DNA from: Archangium sp.
GTDB taxonomy: Bacteria > Myxococcota > Myxococcia > Myxococcales > Myxococcaceae
Direction of reading: 5' to 3'
DNA: 64,000 nt
Assembly: GCA_030695565.1 (NCBI GenBank)
Contig: JAUYRZ010000063.1
Span: 62,001 to 126,000, forward strand
The notes under the pieces were generated by a model that saw only the letters and a list, made by a program, of their open reading frames with translations, was not told where the DNA came from and ran no database searches. The position numbers were made by a program, and so were the translations under genes. Below, one piece after another: positions 13,548-26,918 of the stretch (the stretch's first letter is position 1; each line of letters starts with the position of its first letter).

Positions 13548-13590
13548 CCCTCACCCTGACCCTCTCCCAGAGGGCCCAGAGGGAGAGGGG
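13548..13590. repeat. Palindromic intergenic repeat, full-length copy
   Basis: CCCTCACCCTGACCCTCTCCC, a 12-base loop, then GGGAGAGGGG. The stem CCTCTCCC (13561-13568) pairs with GGGAGAGG (13581-13588). It lies between the convergent ends at 13542 and 13594. Confidence 0.8.
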
Positions 13591-21351: not shown

Positions 21352-22251
21352 TCAGGTGAGCACCGGGAGCGCGATCGCCCCTGGTTTGAGGGCGTCGTTG
21401 AGCCGGCCCGAGCGGAAGGGCTCGAGATCCACGGCCACGAAGGTGAAGCCCTGCGCCTTGATGGCCTGGTTCACGGCCTCGCGGGTGGTGGGGTCGAGCA
21501 TGCGCGCGAGCTCTTCGGCGCCCAGCTCGAGCCGCGCGACTTCGTTGTGGTAGCGCACGCGGAAGTTCACGAAGCCCAGGGCGCGCACGGCTTTCTCTGC
21601 CGAGCCGACTTGCTTGAGGCGCTCCACGGTGACCTGCGTGCCGTACGGGAGGCGCGACGCGAGGCAGGCCATCTGCGGCTTGTCCCAGGTGGGGAGATCG
21701 AGGCGCTTCGACCAGGCGCGCACTTCAGCCTTGGTGAGCTGCGCTTCGGCCAGCGGAGAACGCACCGCGTGTTCGGCCGCCGCCTTGTGACCGGGGCGGT
21801 GATCCTTCTTGTCGTCGGCGTTGAAGCCGTCGAGCACCACGGCGAGCCCCAGCTCAGCGCGGTGTTTACTGGTGATCGCGTAGAGCTCGGTCTTGCAGAA
21901 GTAGCAGCGGTTCGAAGGGTTCGCGGCGTAGCGCGGGTCGTCGAGCTCCTTCGAGTCGACCAGCACGTGCTTCGCGCCGATCTTCGCGGCGAGCTCTTCG
22001 GCTTCTTTGGCTTCATCAGGCGCGACCGAAGCGGAGATGGCGGTCAACGCGATGGCCCGTTCACCCAGCTGTTCGACGGCCAGCTTGAGCACCAGCGCCG
22101 AGTCGACCCCTCCCGAGAAGGCGATCAACGCAGAGCCGTGAGCCCGCAGCGCCGCTCTCAAGCCTTCGACCCGGTCGGCTGACTGGGCGCACAGGGCATC
22201 GACCTGTGCATCGGAGAGAACGGGCTGCTGCGGCAGGGCGATTGACGACAT
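21352..22251 (-). CDS. larE: LarE-family ATP-dependent sacrificial sulfur transferase
   Basis: 299 residues. LarE adenylates then sulfurates pyridinium-dicarboxylate during synthesis of the NPN (nickel-pincer) cofactor of lactate racemase. The PP-loop SGGVDS is at 46-51. Three cysteines (C116 and C119 in NRCYFCK, C196 in MACLASRLPYG) match LarE versions that carry a [4Fe-4S] cluster and can recycle sulfur rather than sacrifice a Cys. No larB or larC is in the window. It ends the sulfur cluster, 48 bases after the APS-kinase-like gene. Other sulfuryl acceptors are possible. Confidence 0.88.
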   Translation of the reverse strand: MSSIALPQQPVLSDAQVDALCAQSADRVEGLRAALRAHGSALIAFSGGVDSALVLKLAVEQLGERAIALTAISASVAPDEAKEAEELAAKIGAKHVLVDSKELDDPRYAANPSNRCYFCKTELYAITSKHRAELGLAVVLDGFNADDKKDHRPGHKAAAEHAVRSPLAEAQLTKAEVRAWSKRLDLPTWDKPQMACLASRLPYGTQVTVERLKQVGSAEKAVRALGFVNFRVRYHNEVARLELGAEELARMLDPTTREAVNQAIKAQGFTFVAVDLEPFRSGRLNDALKPGAIALPVLT

Positions 22252-22299: not shown

Positions 22300-23004
22300 T
22301 TACTTCTTCTTCTTCTTGGCAGGCGCGGCGGGCTTGGCGGCCTTGGCAGGCTTGGCGGCCTTGGCAGCCTTGGCCGGAGCGACCGTCTTGGCAGGCTTGC
22401 CCGGCTTGACCTTCTTGGGGTTCGGGTTCGCCTTCATCTTCGTGCCCGTGATGACCTTGAGCTCGTCGGGGGTCATGTACGAGAGATCGAGCAGCGACTG
22501 GAACACCTTGAGGCCGCCCTCCTCGATGCTGTCGATGTTGGAGGCCACGATGACTTCAGCCGAGCTGGGCGGCTGGTAGGGCTCGGTGATCCCCACGAAG
22601 TTGGGGATCTCGCCGGCCAGCGCCTTCTTGTACTTGCCGGTGGTGTCGCGCTTGATGAGCTCGTCGGTCGGGCAGTCGACGTAGACCTCGATGTACCGCT
22701 GAATGCGGCGGCGGTTGTCGTCGCGCGACTGCTTGTCCGGGCTCGCACAGGCGACCAGGGTGGCCACGCCGTTGCGGGTCAGCGCATCGGCGACGAAGCC
22801 CAGGCGGCGCGCGATGACCATGCGCTCTTCCTTGGTGTCGCCTTCGATTTCCTTCCAGAGGTCGTCCTGGAGGTCGTCTTCATCGAGGATCTCGACCTTG
22901 CGGCCGACCTGGCGCAAACGCGCTTCGATGTACTGCGAGAGCGTGCTCTTTCCCGCTCCCAACATCCCCGTCAGCCAGACCGTGAAGCCCGTCTCTTGCG
23001 CCAT
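22300..23004 (-). CDS. APS-kinase-like P-loop protein with histone-H1-like tail
   Basis: 234 residues from ATG 23004. APS kinases phosphorylate adenylylsulfate to PAPS. Walker A GMLGAGKS is at 13-20. RRLGFVADALTRNG (67-79), EVYVDCPTDELIKRD (106-120) and FVGITEPYQPP (136-146) align with the APS-kinase pattern. The usual DGDxxR substrate motif reads DEDDLQ (41-46), so sulfate chemistry is uncertain. Residues 190-234 are almost only Lys, Ala and Pro, ending in five Lys, like histone H1 or AlgP tails that bind nucleic acid. Probably co-transcribed with larE; a separate promoter may lie at 23077-23110. Confidence 0.8.
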   Translation of the reverse strand: MAQETGFTVWLTGMLGAGKSTLSQYIEARLRQVGRKVEILDEDDLQDDLWKEIEGDTKEERMVIARRLGFVADALTRNGVATLVACASPDKQSRDDNRRRIQRYIEVYVDCPTDELIKRDTTGKYKKALAGEIPNFVGITEPYQPPSSAEVIVASNIDSIEEGGLKVFQSLLDLSYMTPDELKVITGTKMKANPNPKKVKPGKPAKTVAPAKAAKAAKPAKAAKPAAPAKKKKK

Positions 23005-23126: not shown

Positions 23127-23663
23127 TCAGGTGCTCGTTATTGCTGTGGATTTTGGCACGTGTGAACACGCTGGAACGGCGCCGGTTTCGAACCGATCAC
23201 CCCGCCAATGCACGATTCCGAGCGCGTCGGACCACCCCAGAATGAGCCGTTGGGCGGTCAAGGCGGCGAGGCTGCCCACCGGTCCACCGGGGGGTTCGCA
23301 GCCCAGGGTCAGGCGCACCTTTTCCCAACAGGCGTCACACGCAGCGGGGGTGCGAAAGGCCACTCCCGCGCCCACCACCACCTGCGTCGGGGCGGTCGAA
23401 ACGAGCTCCAGGGGAAGCAGGTCGAGCACCGGCGTCAGGGCCGAGGGCTCCAACGGGGTGTGGGCGAAGAACCCGCTCAAGGCGTGGTCTGACGTGCGTT
23501 CGATCGGCGTGCCTCCCGCCGCCAGCCAGGCCAGCGCATCGTCGATCGCCGCGCTGCTGCCCCACACGCGCACGGGGGAGACCAGGAGCTTCTCCTGCCC
23601 TTTGCCTCCCACTTCACGCAGCAGGATCTGCCGGCCGTAGCGGACGATCTGATCTTCGCGCAT
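23127..23663 (-). CDS. Degenerate ThiF/MoeB-like protein (pseudo-E1)
   Basis: 178 residues from ATG 23663 (TGATG overlap with the upstream carrier gene). The N-terminus DQIVRYGRQILLREVGGKGQEKLL matches the start of MoeB/ThiF; R11 corresponds to MoeB Arg14, which contacts ATP in the opposite subunit. After VRVWGSS the nucleotide-binding GxGGxG is missing (SSAAIDDALAWLAAGG instead). The C-terminal part keeps CDAC (109-112), like one half of the MoeB zinc site, and SLAALTAQRLILGW, equivalent to the GSLQAMEA helix. It is a shortened paralogue (usual length about 250), probably catalytically dead but able to pair with the full E1 next door. Confidence 0.78.
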   Translation of the reverse strand: MREDQIVRYGRQILLREVGGKGQEKLLVSPVRVWGSSAAIDDALAWLAAGGTPIERTSDHALSGFFAHTPLEPSALTPVLDLLPLELVSTAPTQVVVGAGVAFRTPAACDACWEKVRLTLGCEPPGGPVGSLAALTAQRLILGWSDALGIVHWRGDRFETGAVPACSHVPKSTAITST

Positions 23664-23935
23664 CAACCACCTGCCATCGCGGCGACCAGCACCACCAGCT
23701 CGGTCGCACCCAGCGGCCGGGCGAGGCCTTCGTCACTGCGCACGTCGTCTTCGCCCACGAAGATGCCCACCGTGCGCTTGAGCTTGCCGGCGCCGGTGAA
23801 GAGTTGGGGCCGCAGCTCGGGGTGCGCGCGGCACACCGACTCCAGCGCTTCGGCGACCGTGGCGCCCTCGACGGCAAGCTTCGCGCGGCCCGCAGCGCGG
23901 GGGCGAAGGGCCGCAGGGAGTTCGACGACAGGCAT
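23663..23935 (-). CDS. MoaD/ThiS-like sulfur carrier, CysO-type
   Basis: 90 residues with the beta-grasp fold expected of ubiquitin-like carriers and the C-terminal Gly-Gly that becomes a thiocarboxylate. The final stretch (FVGEDDVRSDEGLARPLGATELVVLV, then AAMAGG) resembles CysO and MoaD. The order E1-TusA-carrier-pseudo-E1 suggests it is adenylated by the cluster's E1. No cysM or Mec+ protease, which accompany CysO, is in the window. The start overlaps the TusA-like stop by one base and its stop overlaps the pseudo-E1 start, so translation is coupled throughout. Confidence 0.9.
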   Translation of the reverse strand: MPVVELPAALRPRAAGRAKLAVEGATVAEALESVCRAHPELRPQLFTGAGKLKRTVGIFVGEDDVRSDEGLARPLGATELVVLVAAMAGG

Positions 23936-24159
23936 CAGTGGTGCACCCGCAAGGTGAGCTTCGAGGTGCCGTCTTCCAGCTGCAGAAGCGAGAGCACCTC
24001 GTGACCTTCTTCGACCGCGCTGCGCGGCACGTTGGTCAACGGCTCGTGGCCGCGCAGGATCACCTCGAGCGTGGCGCCGTCTTCCAGCGCTTCGACGGCC
24101 AGCTTCACGCGCACGTAGGTCATCGGGCAGACCTCTCGGGTGATGTCGATGGTGGGCAT
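23935..24159 (-). CDS. TusA-like sulfurtransferase
   Basis: 74 residues from ATG 24159, with GGGAGA upstream; a longer in-frame start would overlap the E1 gene. The active-site motif CPMTYVRVKLAVEAL (Cys 11) is the TusA/SirA/YedF signature: the Cys accepts persulfide sulfur from a cysteine desulfurase or rhodanese and passes it on. It sits between the E1 and the carrier gene, consistent with delivering sulfur to the carrier's Gly-Gly end. TusA members have roles in tRNA thiolation and in molybdopterin or sulfur oxidation; context favours cofactor or amino-acid sulfur transfer here. Confidence 0.92.
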   Translation of the reverse strand: MPTIDITREVCPMTYVRVKLAVEALEDGATLEVILRGHEPLTNVPRSAVEEGHEVLSLLQLEDGTSKLTLRVHH

Positions 24160-24170
24160 CGAAGTCTCCC

Positions 24171-24848
24171 TTACCGGTTTTCCGTGCCGCATGCCGCGCA
24201 GTCCGCCCGCCTTCTCACCCGCACGCTCCGAAAGGTGAGGCTGCGGCCATCGACGACCTGAAGAGATGCGGTTCCCTCTCCCTTTGGGAGAAGGTCAGGT
24301 GCTCTCAAGGCAAGACTCGCCTGAAGACCGCCAATCAACCCCGCCATCGAGCCGAGCACCCCCGCCTGGGCGCAGGTGAGCGCATCATCAGGCGGCGTCT
24401 CGAACAGACACCGCAAACACGGGCCGCCCCGTTGAATGCGCATCGCGAGCCCCTCGAACCGCAGCACGCCTCCGTAGATGAGCGGCGTGCCCGTGCGCAC
24501 CGAAGTGTCGGAGAGGAGGAACTTGGTGTCGACCCCGTCGGTCGCGTCGATCACCAGGTCGTGCGTGGTGAACAACTCATCGGCGTTCTGCGCGGTGAGG
24601 CGCTCCTGCCGGGCGGTGATCTGCATGCCGGGGAATGCGCGCTCCAGCTTGGCGGCGGCGGAGTGGACCTTCGGCTGGCCCACGTCGGCGAGGTGATGCC
24701 AGGGCTGGCGATGGAGGTTGGTTGGCTCGACGACGTCGGGATCCATCAGGGTGAGCTGCGTCACCCCTGCTCGTGCGAGCGCGAGGGAGGCGGGGCAGCC
24801 CAGCCCACCGACGCCGACGATCAGCACGTGTTTTGAGTTCACCGTCAC
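24171..24848 (-). CDS. ThiF/MoeB/HesA-family E1-like adenylyltransferase without N-terminal segment
   Basis: 225 residues from GTG 24848. It adenylates the C-terminal Gly of ubiquitin-like carriers. Nucleotide motif GVGGLG is at 12-17, with R47 (NLHRQ), K60 (VGQPK) and D101 in DATDG all conserved. Zinc Cys pairs are C144/C147 and C217/C220; C159 (LTCAQAG) matches the MoeB catalytic-position Cys. The MoeB N-terminal RYxRQ segment is absent: the protein begins almost at the Rossmann strand. That segment is present in the degenerate paralogue at 23127. Residues about 183-193 are encoded by a dispersed palindromic repeat, in a loop. Confidence 0.9.
   Translation of the reverse strand: MTVNSKHVLIVGVGGLGCPASLALARAGVTQLTLMDPDVVEPTNLHRQPWHHLADVGQPKVHSAAAKLERAFPGMQITARQERLTAQNADELFTTHDLVIDATDGVDTKFLLSDTSVRTGTPLIYGGVLRFEGLAMRIQRGGPCLRCLFETPPDDALTCAQAGVLGSMAGLIGGLQASLALRAPDLLPKGEGTASLQVVDGRSLTFRSVRVRRRADCAACGTENR
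24271..24303. repeat. Palindromic repeat inside the E1 gene
   Basis: CCCTCTCCCTTTGGGAGAAGG followed by TCAGGTGC matches the dispersed element, here within the coding sequence of the E1. It encodes about residues 183-193 (APDLLPKGEGT), where MoeB has a variable loop (AGYGKPASGK). The frame is kept. Confidence 0.7.
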
Positions 24849-24852
24849 TGGC

Positions 24853-24893
24853 CCCTCACCCCGACCCTCTCCCCGCTTCGCAGGGCGAGGGAG
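24853..24893. repeat. Palindromic repeat between divergent E1 and histidine kinase genes
   Basis: CCCTCACCCCGACCCTCTCCCC, loop, then GCAGGGCGAGGGAG. It occupies most of the 56-base gap between divergent starts 24848 and 24905, and its GGGAG end lies about 12 bases before the kinase ATG, so it may supply part of that ribosome site. Confidence 0.75.
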
Positions 24894-24904
24894 ACAAGCG
24901 CTTC

Positions 24905-26191
24905 ATGCGCGACAAAGGGGATACACTCTCCGGCACCTTGCAGCACTCCGATGATCGTCGCGCTCGCGTGGCCGTGGTGCTCGAGAAGCGTGGGCTGACG
25001 CAACAGGTGTCGGCCGCCGACGCCGCGCAGTCGTGGGTTCAGGAGCGCTTCAGCGCCCGGGCCCGCGCCCTCTTCTACGCGCGCATGATGTTCCTCTCGC
25101 TGGGCCTGGGCATCCTCGCGGTGCCCATCTGGCGCTACTACTTCCACTTCACCGCGCTCGCCGTCGCCGGCTACGTGTTCATGCTGCTCTACAGCGTGGC
25201 CAACTACCTGGTGCTCGGCCATGAGCGCGCCGGCCGCATCGTCACCTACGTCACCTTGTGTCTCGACCTGGTGGTGATGGTGGTGGTGGTGGTCAAACCG
25301 CAAGAAGGCGGCGGCCTGGCCAACCCCCTCCTCGCCACGCAGCTGCTGTTCACCATGTTGTTCGCCCTGCTCTACCCCAAGCCGCTGGCGATCCTCCCGC
25401 CGCTGCTGGCGTTGCCCATCACCGCGCGCCTCGATCAGCTGCTCGATCGCAGCCCCAGCGCCATCGAGGTGCTCACCCTCATCTGGTACCTCGGGCTCAA
25501 CTTCATCGTCATCTACGTGCTGGTGTACCTCAACGAGCGCGAGGTCACCGCGCACCGCGAGGTGGTCGAGCTGCAGGGCGATCTCAAAGAGCTCGCCGTG
25601 GTGGAGGAGCGCAACCGCCTGGCCCGCGAGATCCACGACGGCCTGGGCGCCAGCCTCTCGTCGCTCATCATCCAGTCCGAATATGTCGCGCAGCTGACCA
25701 AAGACGAAGCGGTGAAGAAGGAGGTCGCCGAACTCAAACAATCCGCTGAAGAGGCGATCGAAGAGCTGCGCCGCAGCCTGCAGATGATGCGGGAAGACTT
25801 CGACCTCGCCAACGGCGTCGAGGACTACGTGAAGACCTTCGGCGATCGCACCCAGCTCCCGGTGAACTTTCAGAAGAGCGGCACCCTGCTGGGCCGCCTC
25901 GCCCCGGAGACTTCGCTCGCGTTGTTCCGGGTGCTGCAGGAGCTGCTCTCCAACGCCGCCAAACACGCCGCCGCCGCGCGGGTCGACGTGAAGCTGCACT
26001 TCGGGCCTGAGTCCGTGCAGCTCGGCGTCAAAGACGACGGCAAGGGCTTCGACCCCAGCGCGCCCCGCCCCGGCCACTACGGGCTCATCAACCTGCGCGA
26101 GCGTGCGATGAAGGCCGGCGGCGACGTCACCATCGACGCCAAGCTGGGCGCAGGCGTGCACATCACCTTCACTGTTCCAGTTGGTCCCTGA
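24905..26191 (+). CDS. NarL-type sensor histidine kinase
   Basis: 428 residues from ATG 24905. Five or six membrane helices cover about residues 45-215 (LFYARMMFLSLGLGILAVP, then AVAGYVFMLLYSVANYLVLG and others) with little extracytoplasmic loop, so the ligand may be sensed within the membrane. The HisKA_3 dimerisation site is EERNRLAREIHDGLGASL (phospho-accepting His about 244). The ATPase domain has the N box QELLSNAAKHA and the G box DDGKGFD, then GLINLRERA. A cognate regulator follows 16 bases downstream. The N-terminal MASE-like membrane region is not a family I can name. Confidence 0.9.
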   Translation: MRDKGDTLSGTLQHSDDRRARVAVVLEKRGLTQQVSAADAAQSWVQERFSARARALFYARMMFLSLGLGILAVPIWRYYFHFTALAVAGYVFMLLYSVANYLVLGHERAGRIVTYVTLCLDLVVMVVVVVKPQEGGGLANPLLATQLLFTMLFALLYPKPLAILPPLLALPITARLDQLLDRSPSAIEVLTLIWYLGLNFIVIYVLVYLNEREVTAHREVVELQGDLKELAVVEERNRLAREIHDGLGASLSSLIIQSEYVAQLTKDEAVKKEVAELKQSAEEAIEELRRSLQMMREDFDLANGVEDYVKTFGDRTQLPVNFQKSGTLLGRLAPETSLALFRVLQELLSNAAKHAAAARVDVKLHFGPESVQLGVKDDGKGFDPSAPRPGHYGLINLRERAMKAGGDVTIDAKLGAGVHITFTVPVGP

Positions 26192-26207
26192 TTGACGAGG
26201 AGTCGGC

Positions 26208-26918
26208 GTGGAAACCCCTGATGCCCTGACGAACCCGAGCCCCGTGACGCCCATCCGCGTGTTCGTGGTGGAAGATCAAACGAAGATCCTCAAGAACCAG
26301 CTCAAGCTGCTCGAAGGTCACCCCGAGCTGACCATCATCGGCACCGCGCTCTCGGGCGAGACGGGCCTCGAAGAAGTCAGAAGGCTCAAGCCCGATGTGC
26401 TGCTGCTCGACCTGGGCCTGCCGCGCATGAGCGGCATCGACGTCACCCGGGTGGTGAAGGCCGAGCTGCCGTCGATCGAGATCCTCATCTTCACCATCTT
26501 CGACGAAGAGGACAAAGTGCTCGAGGCGGTGAAGGCCGGCGCTTCTGGCTACCTGCTCAAGGGCACGCCTGCCGACAAGATGGTCGAGGCGATCAAAGAG
26601 GTGCACGCCGGGGGCACGGTCATTCAGCCCAACCTCGCGCGACGCCTGCTCAAACACTTCCGCGTCGGTGAGCCGCCTGCGCCCGCGCCCGCCAACACGC
26701 AGCAGCCCGAGCCCGAAGGCAAGAAGCTCTCAACGCGCGAGACGGAGATCCTCCAGCTGATCGCCAAGGGGGTCTCCAACAGCGAGGCGGCCACCATGCT
26801 CACGCTGTCGAAGGCCACCATTCGCACGCACCTCGAGCACATCTACCGCAAGCTCGAGGTCACCAACCGCGTGGAGGCCGTCACCGAAGGCCTGCGCAAG
26901 GGCCTCATCCAGATGTGA
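26208..26918 (+). CDS. NarL/FixJ-family response regulator
   Basis: 236 residues from GTG 26208, with GAGGAG upstream. The receiver domain has acidic residues in VVED (22-23), phospho-acceptor Asp about 68 (LLLDLGLP), a Thr/Lys pocket (IFTIFD and LLKGTP). A Pro/Ala/Gln linker (about 145-170) joins a LuxR-type HTH: KLSTRETEILQLIAKGVSN, then TLSKATIRTHLEHIYRKLEVTNRVEAV. It is co-transcribed with the kinase and probably activates or represses target promoters on phosphorylation; targets are not visible. Confidence 0.95.
   Translation: METPDALTNPSPVTPIRVFVVEDQTKILKNQLKLLEGHPELTIIGTALSGETGLEEVRRLKPDVLLLDLGLPRMSGIDVTRVVKAELPSIEILIFTIFDEEDKVLEAVKAGASGYLLKGTPADKMVEAIKEVHAGGTVIQPNLARRLLKHFRVGEPPAPAPANTQQPEPEGKKLSTRETEILQLIAKGVSNSEAATMLTLSKATIRTHLEHIYRKLEVTNRVEAVTEGLRKGLIQM

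Follow-up and report, generated by a model that had tools for sequence, protein, structure and literature searches.

The locus raises the question of why a bacterial sulfur-carrier operon holds two E1-like genes, one of which has the ATP site of a MoeB/ThiF-type enzyme without the N-terminal arginine arm, and the other the arm without the ATP site. The original prediction was that the two proteins form an asymmetric heterodimer, with the arm acting in trans. The analysis of the 64,000-nucleotide stretch of DNA (the window), which belongs to a genome of 8.5 Mb, supports this proposal through the pairing of the genes, the armless E1s, the complementary losses and the geometry of a model of the pair. 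It is quite likely that the two genes are the halves of a single asymmetric E1-type adenylating enzyme, in which the arm of the inactive paralogue (the pseudo-E1) would lie over the ATP of its partner.

The gene cluster

The cluster occupies the minus strand from 24848 to 21352 and comprises, in this order, the E1, TusA-like, ThiS-like, pseudo-E1, APS-kinase-like, and LarE genes (Table 1). As originally noticed, the carrier and the TusA-like gene lie between the two paralogues. The further claim that all these genes are coupled is right for the TusA/ThiS and ThiS/pseudo-E1 junctions, where the start and stop codons overlap (TGATG), but slightly overstated for the E1, which is separated from the TusA-like gene by 11 nt.

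Table 1. Features of the cluster in the window
Feature	Positions	Strand	Basis
In-frame stretch 5' of the E1 start, repeat-like GC-rich element, without E1 homology	24849..24902	-	Sequence
Catalytic E1 of the ThiF/MoeB family (225 aa), N-terminal arm absent	24171..24848	-	GTG start, Pfam and MoeB alignment
TusA/SirA-like sulfur-relay protein, 74 aa	23935..24159	-	Pfam TusA 2.8e-16
ThiS/MoaD (SAMP1-like) sulfur carrier, 90 aa, GG end	23663..23935	-	Pfam ThiS 1.9e-5; NCBIfam SAMP1 3.3e-10, below curated cut-off
Pseudo-E1 partner, 178 aa, arm and CxxC kept, ATP-site residues gone	23127..23663	-	ATG start
RYGRQ arm motif, pseudo-E1 residues 8-12	23628..23642	-	Sequence; invariant R in 75/75
APS-kinase-family protein, likely ATG at 23004 (start inferred)	22300..23004	-	Pfam APS_kinase 3.3e-39; TIGR00455 above cut-off
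LarE-family ATP-dependent sulfur transferase, at the end of the conserved order	21352..22251	-	TIGR00268 310 bits, cut-off 150

A ThiS-like GG carrier, an E1, a SirA/TusA protein, and an APS kinase are thus found together in the window. The carrier ends with AMAGG, and the carriers of the relatives with AGG, in some cases followed by one further residue. CysM and JAMM genes are absent from the window cluster, and JAMM and PLP synthases homologous to them are located elsewhere in the same genome. The APS-kinase-like protein reads LDEDDLQDDLW, where the sequence LDGDxxRxGL is typical of APS kinases; it may act on another substrate, e.g. a serine derivative for CysM. The cluster is adjoined by a divergent sensor histidine kinase and a LuxR-type response regulator (24926-26918), and a regulatory link of this pair to the cluster is possible.

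The genome also encodes a second E1, with an intact arm (RRYSRH) and a C-terminal rhodanese-like extension, beside a JAMM gene (L053:6409-7806; G000:C93:57568-57879). This protein is similar to class 4b of Iyer et al. As an armed, MoeB-rhodanese-like E1 located on another contig with a JAMM gene of its own, it was rejected as a nearby canonical enzyme.

Complementary losses in the two paralogues

The Pfam ThiF profile matches the E1 (7.1e-60) over positions 19-236 of 238, and the protein is therefore short of the N-terminus only. The match takes up the whole of its 225 residues, and neither a catalytic-cysteine half-domain nor a ubiquitin-fold domain is found in them. The closest solved relative in a PDB sequence search is E. 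coli MoeB (1jw9, 4.8e-40). In the alignment with MoeB (numbered on a MoeB sequence that agrees with the aligned PDB stretch), residues G15, D36, R47, K60, D104, and C159 correspond to Gly41, Asp62, Arg73, Lys86, Asp130, and Cys187, respectively, and the zinc pairs are C144/C147 and C217/C220. The protein thus has the GxGxxG loop and the Asp62, Arg73, Lys86, and Asp130 equivalents of a ThiF domain. The residues listed in the original prediction are in place in the case of the GVGGLG loop, R47, K60, the two zinc Cys pairs, and C159, but the equivalent of Asp130 is D104 and not D101, although the latter is likewise invariant. Each of the 14 catalytic and zinc positions scored is intact in 74 of the 81 E1s compared; the other seven are two decayed sister sequences (see below), one protein truncated at a contig end, and four that differ at one or two positions.

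The E1 starts only a few residues ahead of the Rossmann strand. Its reading as a protein that begins almost at this strand, with no arginine segment, agrees with the ThiF coverage and with the in-frame stop at 24903-24905, which limits any upstream extension to 18 codons of repeat-like sequence. The arm motif R[YWF]xR[QH] occurs at none of 80 E1 loci, in any frame, within 500 nt upstream; no close homologue with an intact arm was found in this way, and a missed start or a frameshifted arm is ruled out.

In Corallococcus and Myxococcus loci such as L105 a short His-rich N-terminus, MHGHxDTDHHxRIPHAxRxER, takes the place of the arm. Directly next to the E1 start of the window, at 24853-24872, is a GC-rich, repeat-like element, CCCTCACCCCGACCCTCTCC, with a second copy at 13548-13567. 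A similar motif encodes APDLLPKGEG within the window E1 and TLPHPDPLPQG within the pseudo-E1 of L028, and these sequences suggest a short palindromic repeat that spreads in-frame.

The pseudo-E1 has kept the arm and lost the glycine loop, as was seen originally. Residues R8-Y9-G10-R11-Q12 correspond to the RYNRQ of MoeB, with R11 (codon at 23631-23633) as the equivalent of Arg14, while the position of the loop reads GSSAAI; the MoeB/ThiF-type set of ATP-site residues (Gly41, Arg73, Lys86, Asp130, Cys187) is not present. The protein falls below all Pfam and NCBIfam cut-offs, with its N-terminus matching the MoeB/ThiF models, and a family profile retrieves ThiF (1e-11) and MoeB (3.9e-6) from the PDB. 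Among 75 pseudo-E1s, the position of Arg14 is R in every protein and that of Arg11 in 74, and the equivalents of Gly41, Asp62, Asn70, Arg73, Lys86, Asp130, and Cys187 are gone in nearly all. In 49 dereplicated pseudo-E1s the arm has a mean pairwise identity of 0.63 and the rest of the protein one of 0.23, whereas for canonical E1s the same measure gives 0.64 and 0.49.

The losses are therefore complementary, with the ATP site present and the arm absent in the E1, and the reverse in the pseudo-E1. Because an arm of the MoeB type serves the active site of the other subunit, it would be needed on the dead subunit only, and the active subunit would have no use for an arm of its own. Such a pattern would be expected of an obligate heterodimer, judging from MoeB/ThiF (for the finger, see PMC13139853). 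In two sister genomes (L104 and L193) the equivalents of Arg73, Asp130, and Cys187 are missing from the E1 and the arm from the pseudo-E1, with the carrier, APS kinase, and LarE retained; this co-decay is probably a single event. In the tree calculated without the long-branched row L098, the split E1s fall on one side of a branch that separates them from the armed canonical E1s, with support of 97/86. They did not do so in the first tree, which contained all rows including the very long L098.

Conservation of the pair in Myxococcota

The order E1–TusA–ThiS–pseudo-E1–(CysM)–(JAMM)–APS kinase–LarE recurs in dozens of genomes, which range from Myxococcaceae and Anaeromyxobacter-like families to deeper Myxococcota (some of the family names are inferred from kinship). 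The pairing is thus consistent, and extends over the phylum. A search with the single sequence gave a pseudo-E1 match in 35 of 60 relatives, the weakest of which are possibly ordinary MoeB N-termini, and a search with the profile gave a strong match in nearly all members of the family to which the window belongs. The named records with a pseudo-E1 include Corallococcus, Myxococcus (with M. xanthus), Pyxidicoccus, Hyalangium, Archangium, and Citreicoccus. Elsewhere in the phylum there are genomes with only one E1, which is armed and adjoins TusA (L096, L097).

Within the family, the E1 and the pseudo-E1 are present or absent together, save at contig ends and in the small genome G157. Two genomes with an apparent lone occurrence, G001 and G029, are explained by contig ends; a third, G010, carries a pseudo-E1 of 86 residues. 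Both genes are absent from ten genomes of the family; mostly the whole operon has gone at once, and for that reason this co-absence is not taken as strong evidence.

Several relatives (L032, L036, L039, L044, and L192) have a CysM-like synthase, for which the closest NCBIfam model is cysM (below cut-off), and a JAMM gene between the pseudo-E1 and the APS kinase. In these five, two CysM-like genes flank the cluster, one before the E1 and one after the pseudo-E1. The E1 and TusA are found in one open frame in L049:6835-7749 and L192:5894-7564, as a fusion, and the E1 and ThiS in one frame in L100:7876-9900. A record labelled Comamonas sp. KCTC 72670 (L116) contains a myxobacterial locus with a pseudo-E1 78% identical, and is probably mislabelled or contaminated.

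The loss of the ATP site, together with shortening in several lineages, could also be taken to mean that the pseudo-E1 gene arose by duplication of an E1 and is now decaying as a pseudogene. This is extremely improbable, as in dozens of distantly related genomes the frame is open and the gene collinear, the arm is invariant, and pN is well below pS in the Corallococcus/Myxococcus pairs; the conservation and the pN/pS values largely refute it. The pseudo-E1 is under purifying selection, and this, with the conservation of the gene order in dozens of genomes, indicates that the arrangement is not due to chance. The shortened pseudo-E1s, of 86 (L192), 121 (L102), and 146 residues (L049), have all kept the arm, which reads RYARQ/RYARH in L192 and L102.

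Predicted structure of the pair and the role of the arm

The AlphaFold2 model of the pseudo-E1 alone has a pLDDT of 85.7 and a pTM of 0.81, and its fold matches ThiF in Foldseek (1.4e-6). In VIA-align it is matched with SAE1 at a Z of 12.4 (rmsd 3.4, 160 aligned), the Z scores of SAE1, ThiF, MoeB, and APPBP1 differing by no more than one unit. Since the E1 and the pseudo-E1 share a reading frame in the window, the pair could be modelled as one chain of 573 residues, read through from 24848 to 23130 with the stops taken as Gly. The rows of the alignment were either read-through pairs or single E1 and pseudo-E1 sequences, and the two parts stayed cleanly apart. The pTM of the pair model is 0.68, with ~170 of the 573 residues forming a disordered linker; by our own estimate, a value of ~0.43 would be obtained if the domains were not mutually placed and ~0.67 if they were.

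The pair model superposes on the single chains of UBA1, UBA6, and UBA7 with ~338-359 residues at 3.1-3.8 Å (Z of ~25-28), the superposition spanning model residues 1 to ~563, whereas MoeB is matched through the E1 part only (~213 residues). As both domains are covered, the E1 and the pseudo-E1 are predicted to adopt the canonical pseudo-dimer of E1 enzymes, with the caveat that AlphaFold may bring together whichever two E1 domains are supplied in one chain. The asymmetric arrangement proposed for the pair was obtained in this way, with the pseudo-twofold geometry of the UBA1-type E1s. By chain order, the E1 falls on the N-terminal (inactive) domain of the UBA1 type and the pseudo-E1 on the C-terminal domain, an assignment compatible with the pseudo-symmetry. 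The position of the arm is not confidently predicted in the models: the pLDDT of this segment (the first 20 residues of the protein) is 61-64 in the lone pseudo-E1 and 41-44 in the pair, where a rise with the partner had been expected.

The low pLDDT of the arm in the pair would suit a heterodimer in which the arm serves the assembly or the stability of the active subunit, and R11 has a minor part in catalysis. The Arg finger is reported to be non-essential in MoeB/ThiF and mildly important in yeast Tcd1, where R59A reduces ct6A by only about a quarter (PMC13139853); Tcd1 is also needed for the solubility of Tcd2, and provides a precedent. Moreover, further residues of the arm are strongly conserved in the pseudo-E1 besides the Arg14 equivalent (E3, Q5, R8, Y9, L14, L15, G19, G20, G22, and Q23). 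A purely structural arm is nevertheless unlikely, because the Arg14 equivalent is the sole active-site residue kept in all of the 75 pseudo-E1s, while the residues beside it change (Tyr12 to Phe/Trp, Gln15 to His/Ala, and once Arg11 to Gln), and because loss of the arm coincides with loss of the ATP-site residues in the partner.

It is also conceivable that the pseudo-E1 is a scaffold for the carrier, for TusA, or for the JAMM peptidase, with the E1 as an armless homodimer. Natural fusions of the pseudo-E1 with a C-terminal JAMM peptidase (L038:2799-4358, L042:6100-7236) and E. coli TcdA, which has no Arg finger (PMC13139853), speak for it. We consider it improbable, given that the arm, which in MoeB extends into the neighbouring subunit, is the best conserved part of the pseudo-E1 and is still there in proteins that have little else left, and that the pair is modelled as a canonical E1 pseudo-dimer; the roles of scaffold and subunit could, however, coexist.

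In the preferred reading, the two proteins act as one enzyme, and its parts are held with different confidence. From the sequences and the models, a heterodimer of the E1 and the pseudo-E1 is highly probable. The action of Arg11 of the pseudo-E1 on the ATP of the partner, by analogy with Arg14 of MoeB, is fairly probable, with the confidence lowered by the report that the finger is non-essential in MoeB/ThiF (PMC13139853). The E1 would hold ATP/Mg and the C-terminus of the carrier. The pseudo-E1 would be its obligate partner and complete a pseudo-twofold dimer of the MoeB/UBA1 kind, in which the N-terminal arm and its R11 would lie above the phosphates of the ATP bound by the active subunit; a single active site would be left per dimer. 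The ancestor would have been a homodimer with two sites, which was duplicated, each copy then shedding exactly the part whose partner site had gone. The substrate for adenylation would be the ThiS-like carrier encoded alongside, with the TusA-like protein as the supplier of sulfur for the carrier thiocarboxylate. The CysM-like synthases and the JAMM peptidase retained in the operons of relatives suggest a CysO-type assimilation of sulfur into cysteine (or a related compound). From the operon content and the operon classes 4c/4e (Table 1 in PMC1779556), activation of the carrier in a CysO/CysM-like pathway is the function we lean towards.

In respect to known systems, the E1 has the full catalytic set of MoeB/ThiF and the pseudo-E1 a fold of the ThiF/MoeB type, but MoeB and ThiF form homodimers in which every subunit has both arm and active site, features that are here distributed over two proteins. 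The likeness drawn originally to the eukaryotic heterodimers NAE1-UBA3 and SAE1-UBA2 stands, in that one adenylation domain is live and one is dead, with a pseudo-twofold arrangement (here by prediction only) as also in the IAD/AAD halves of UBA1, and the model of the lone pseudo-E1 matches SAE1 and APPBP1. The window pair differs from them in being bacterial, in its location in a sulfur-carrier operon, and in having neither Cys half-domains nor a ubiquitin-fold domain; its degeneration looks independent of the eukaryotic one. The nearest parallel is the MoeB-like heterodimer Tcd1-Tcd2 of yeast, reported in 2026, in which an inactive paralogue donates the Arg finger to an active one, but which is eukaryotic and acts on tRNA t6A (PMC13139853).

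ThiS/MoaD-JAB-E1-SirA-APS kinase operons are found in rows 4c/4e of Table 1 of Iyer et al. 2006 (PMC1779556), an operon catalogue which, in its passages on such operons, mentions one E1. With them and with the mycobacterial CysO-CysM-Mec-MoeZ system, the window has in common a GG carrier, a rhodanese-less E1, SirA/TusA, and an APS kinase; CysM and JAMM are shared by several relatives and not by the window cluster. Unlike these operons, the window has two complementary E1 paralogues and LarE. A recent review describes prokaryotic MoeB/ThiF E1s as homodimers and presents for eukaryotes the asymmetric kind, in which one adenylation domain is dead (PMC12355090); in the open-access literature we found neither a bacterial inactive-E1 or pseudo-E1 partner nor a reciprocal split over a phylum.

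On balance, we favor the view that bacteria have independently evolved an E1 split of the eukaryotic style, in which a MoeB-type homodimer was duplicated and reciprocally degenerated to an obligate one-site heterodimer, the dead subunit being selected, throughout the phylum, chiefly for its trans-acting arginine arm, and reduced to ~86 residues in one lineage. A bacterial pair with complementary parts shed would be a simple system for asking why E1s turn asymmetric and what the cross-subunit arginine does, as this residue is placed on a separate small protein open to mutation, omission, and swapping. The pair also points to an unstudied sulfur-carrier pathway in laboratory myxobacteria such as Myxococcus xanthus and Corallococcus.
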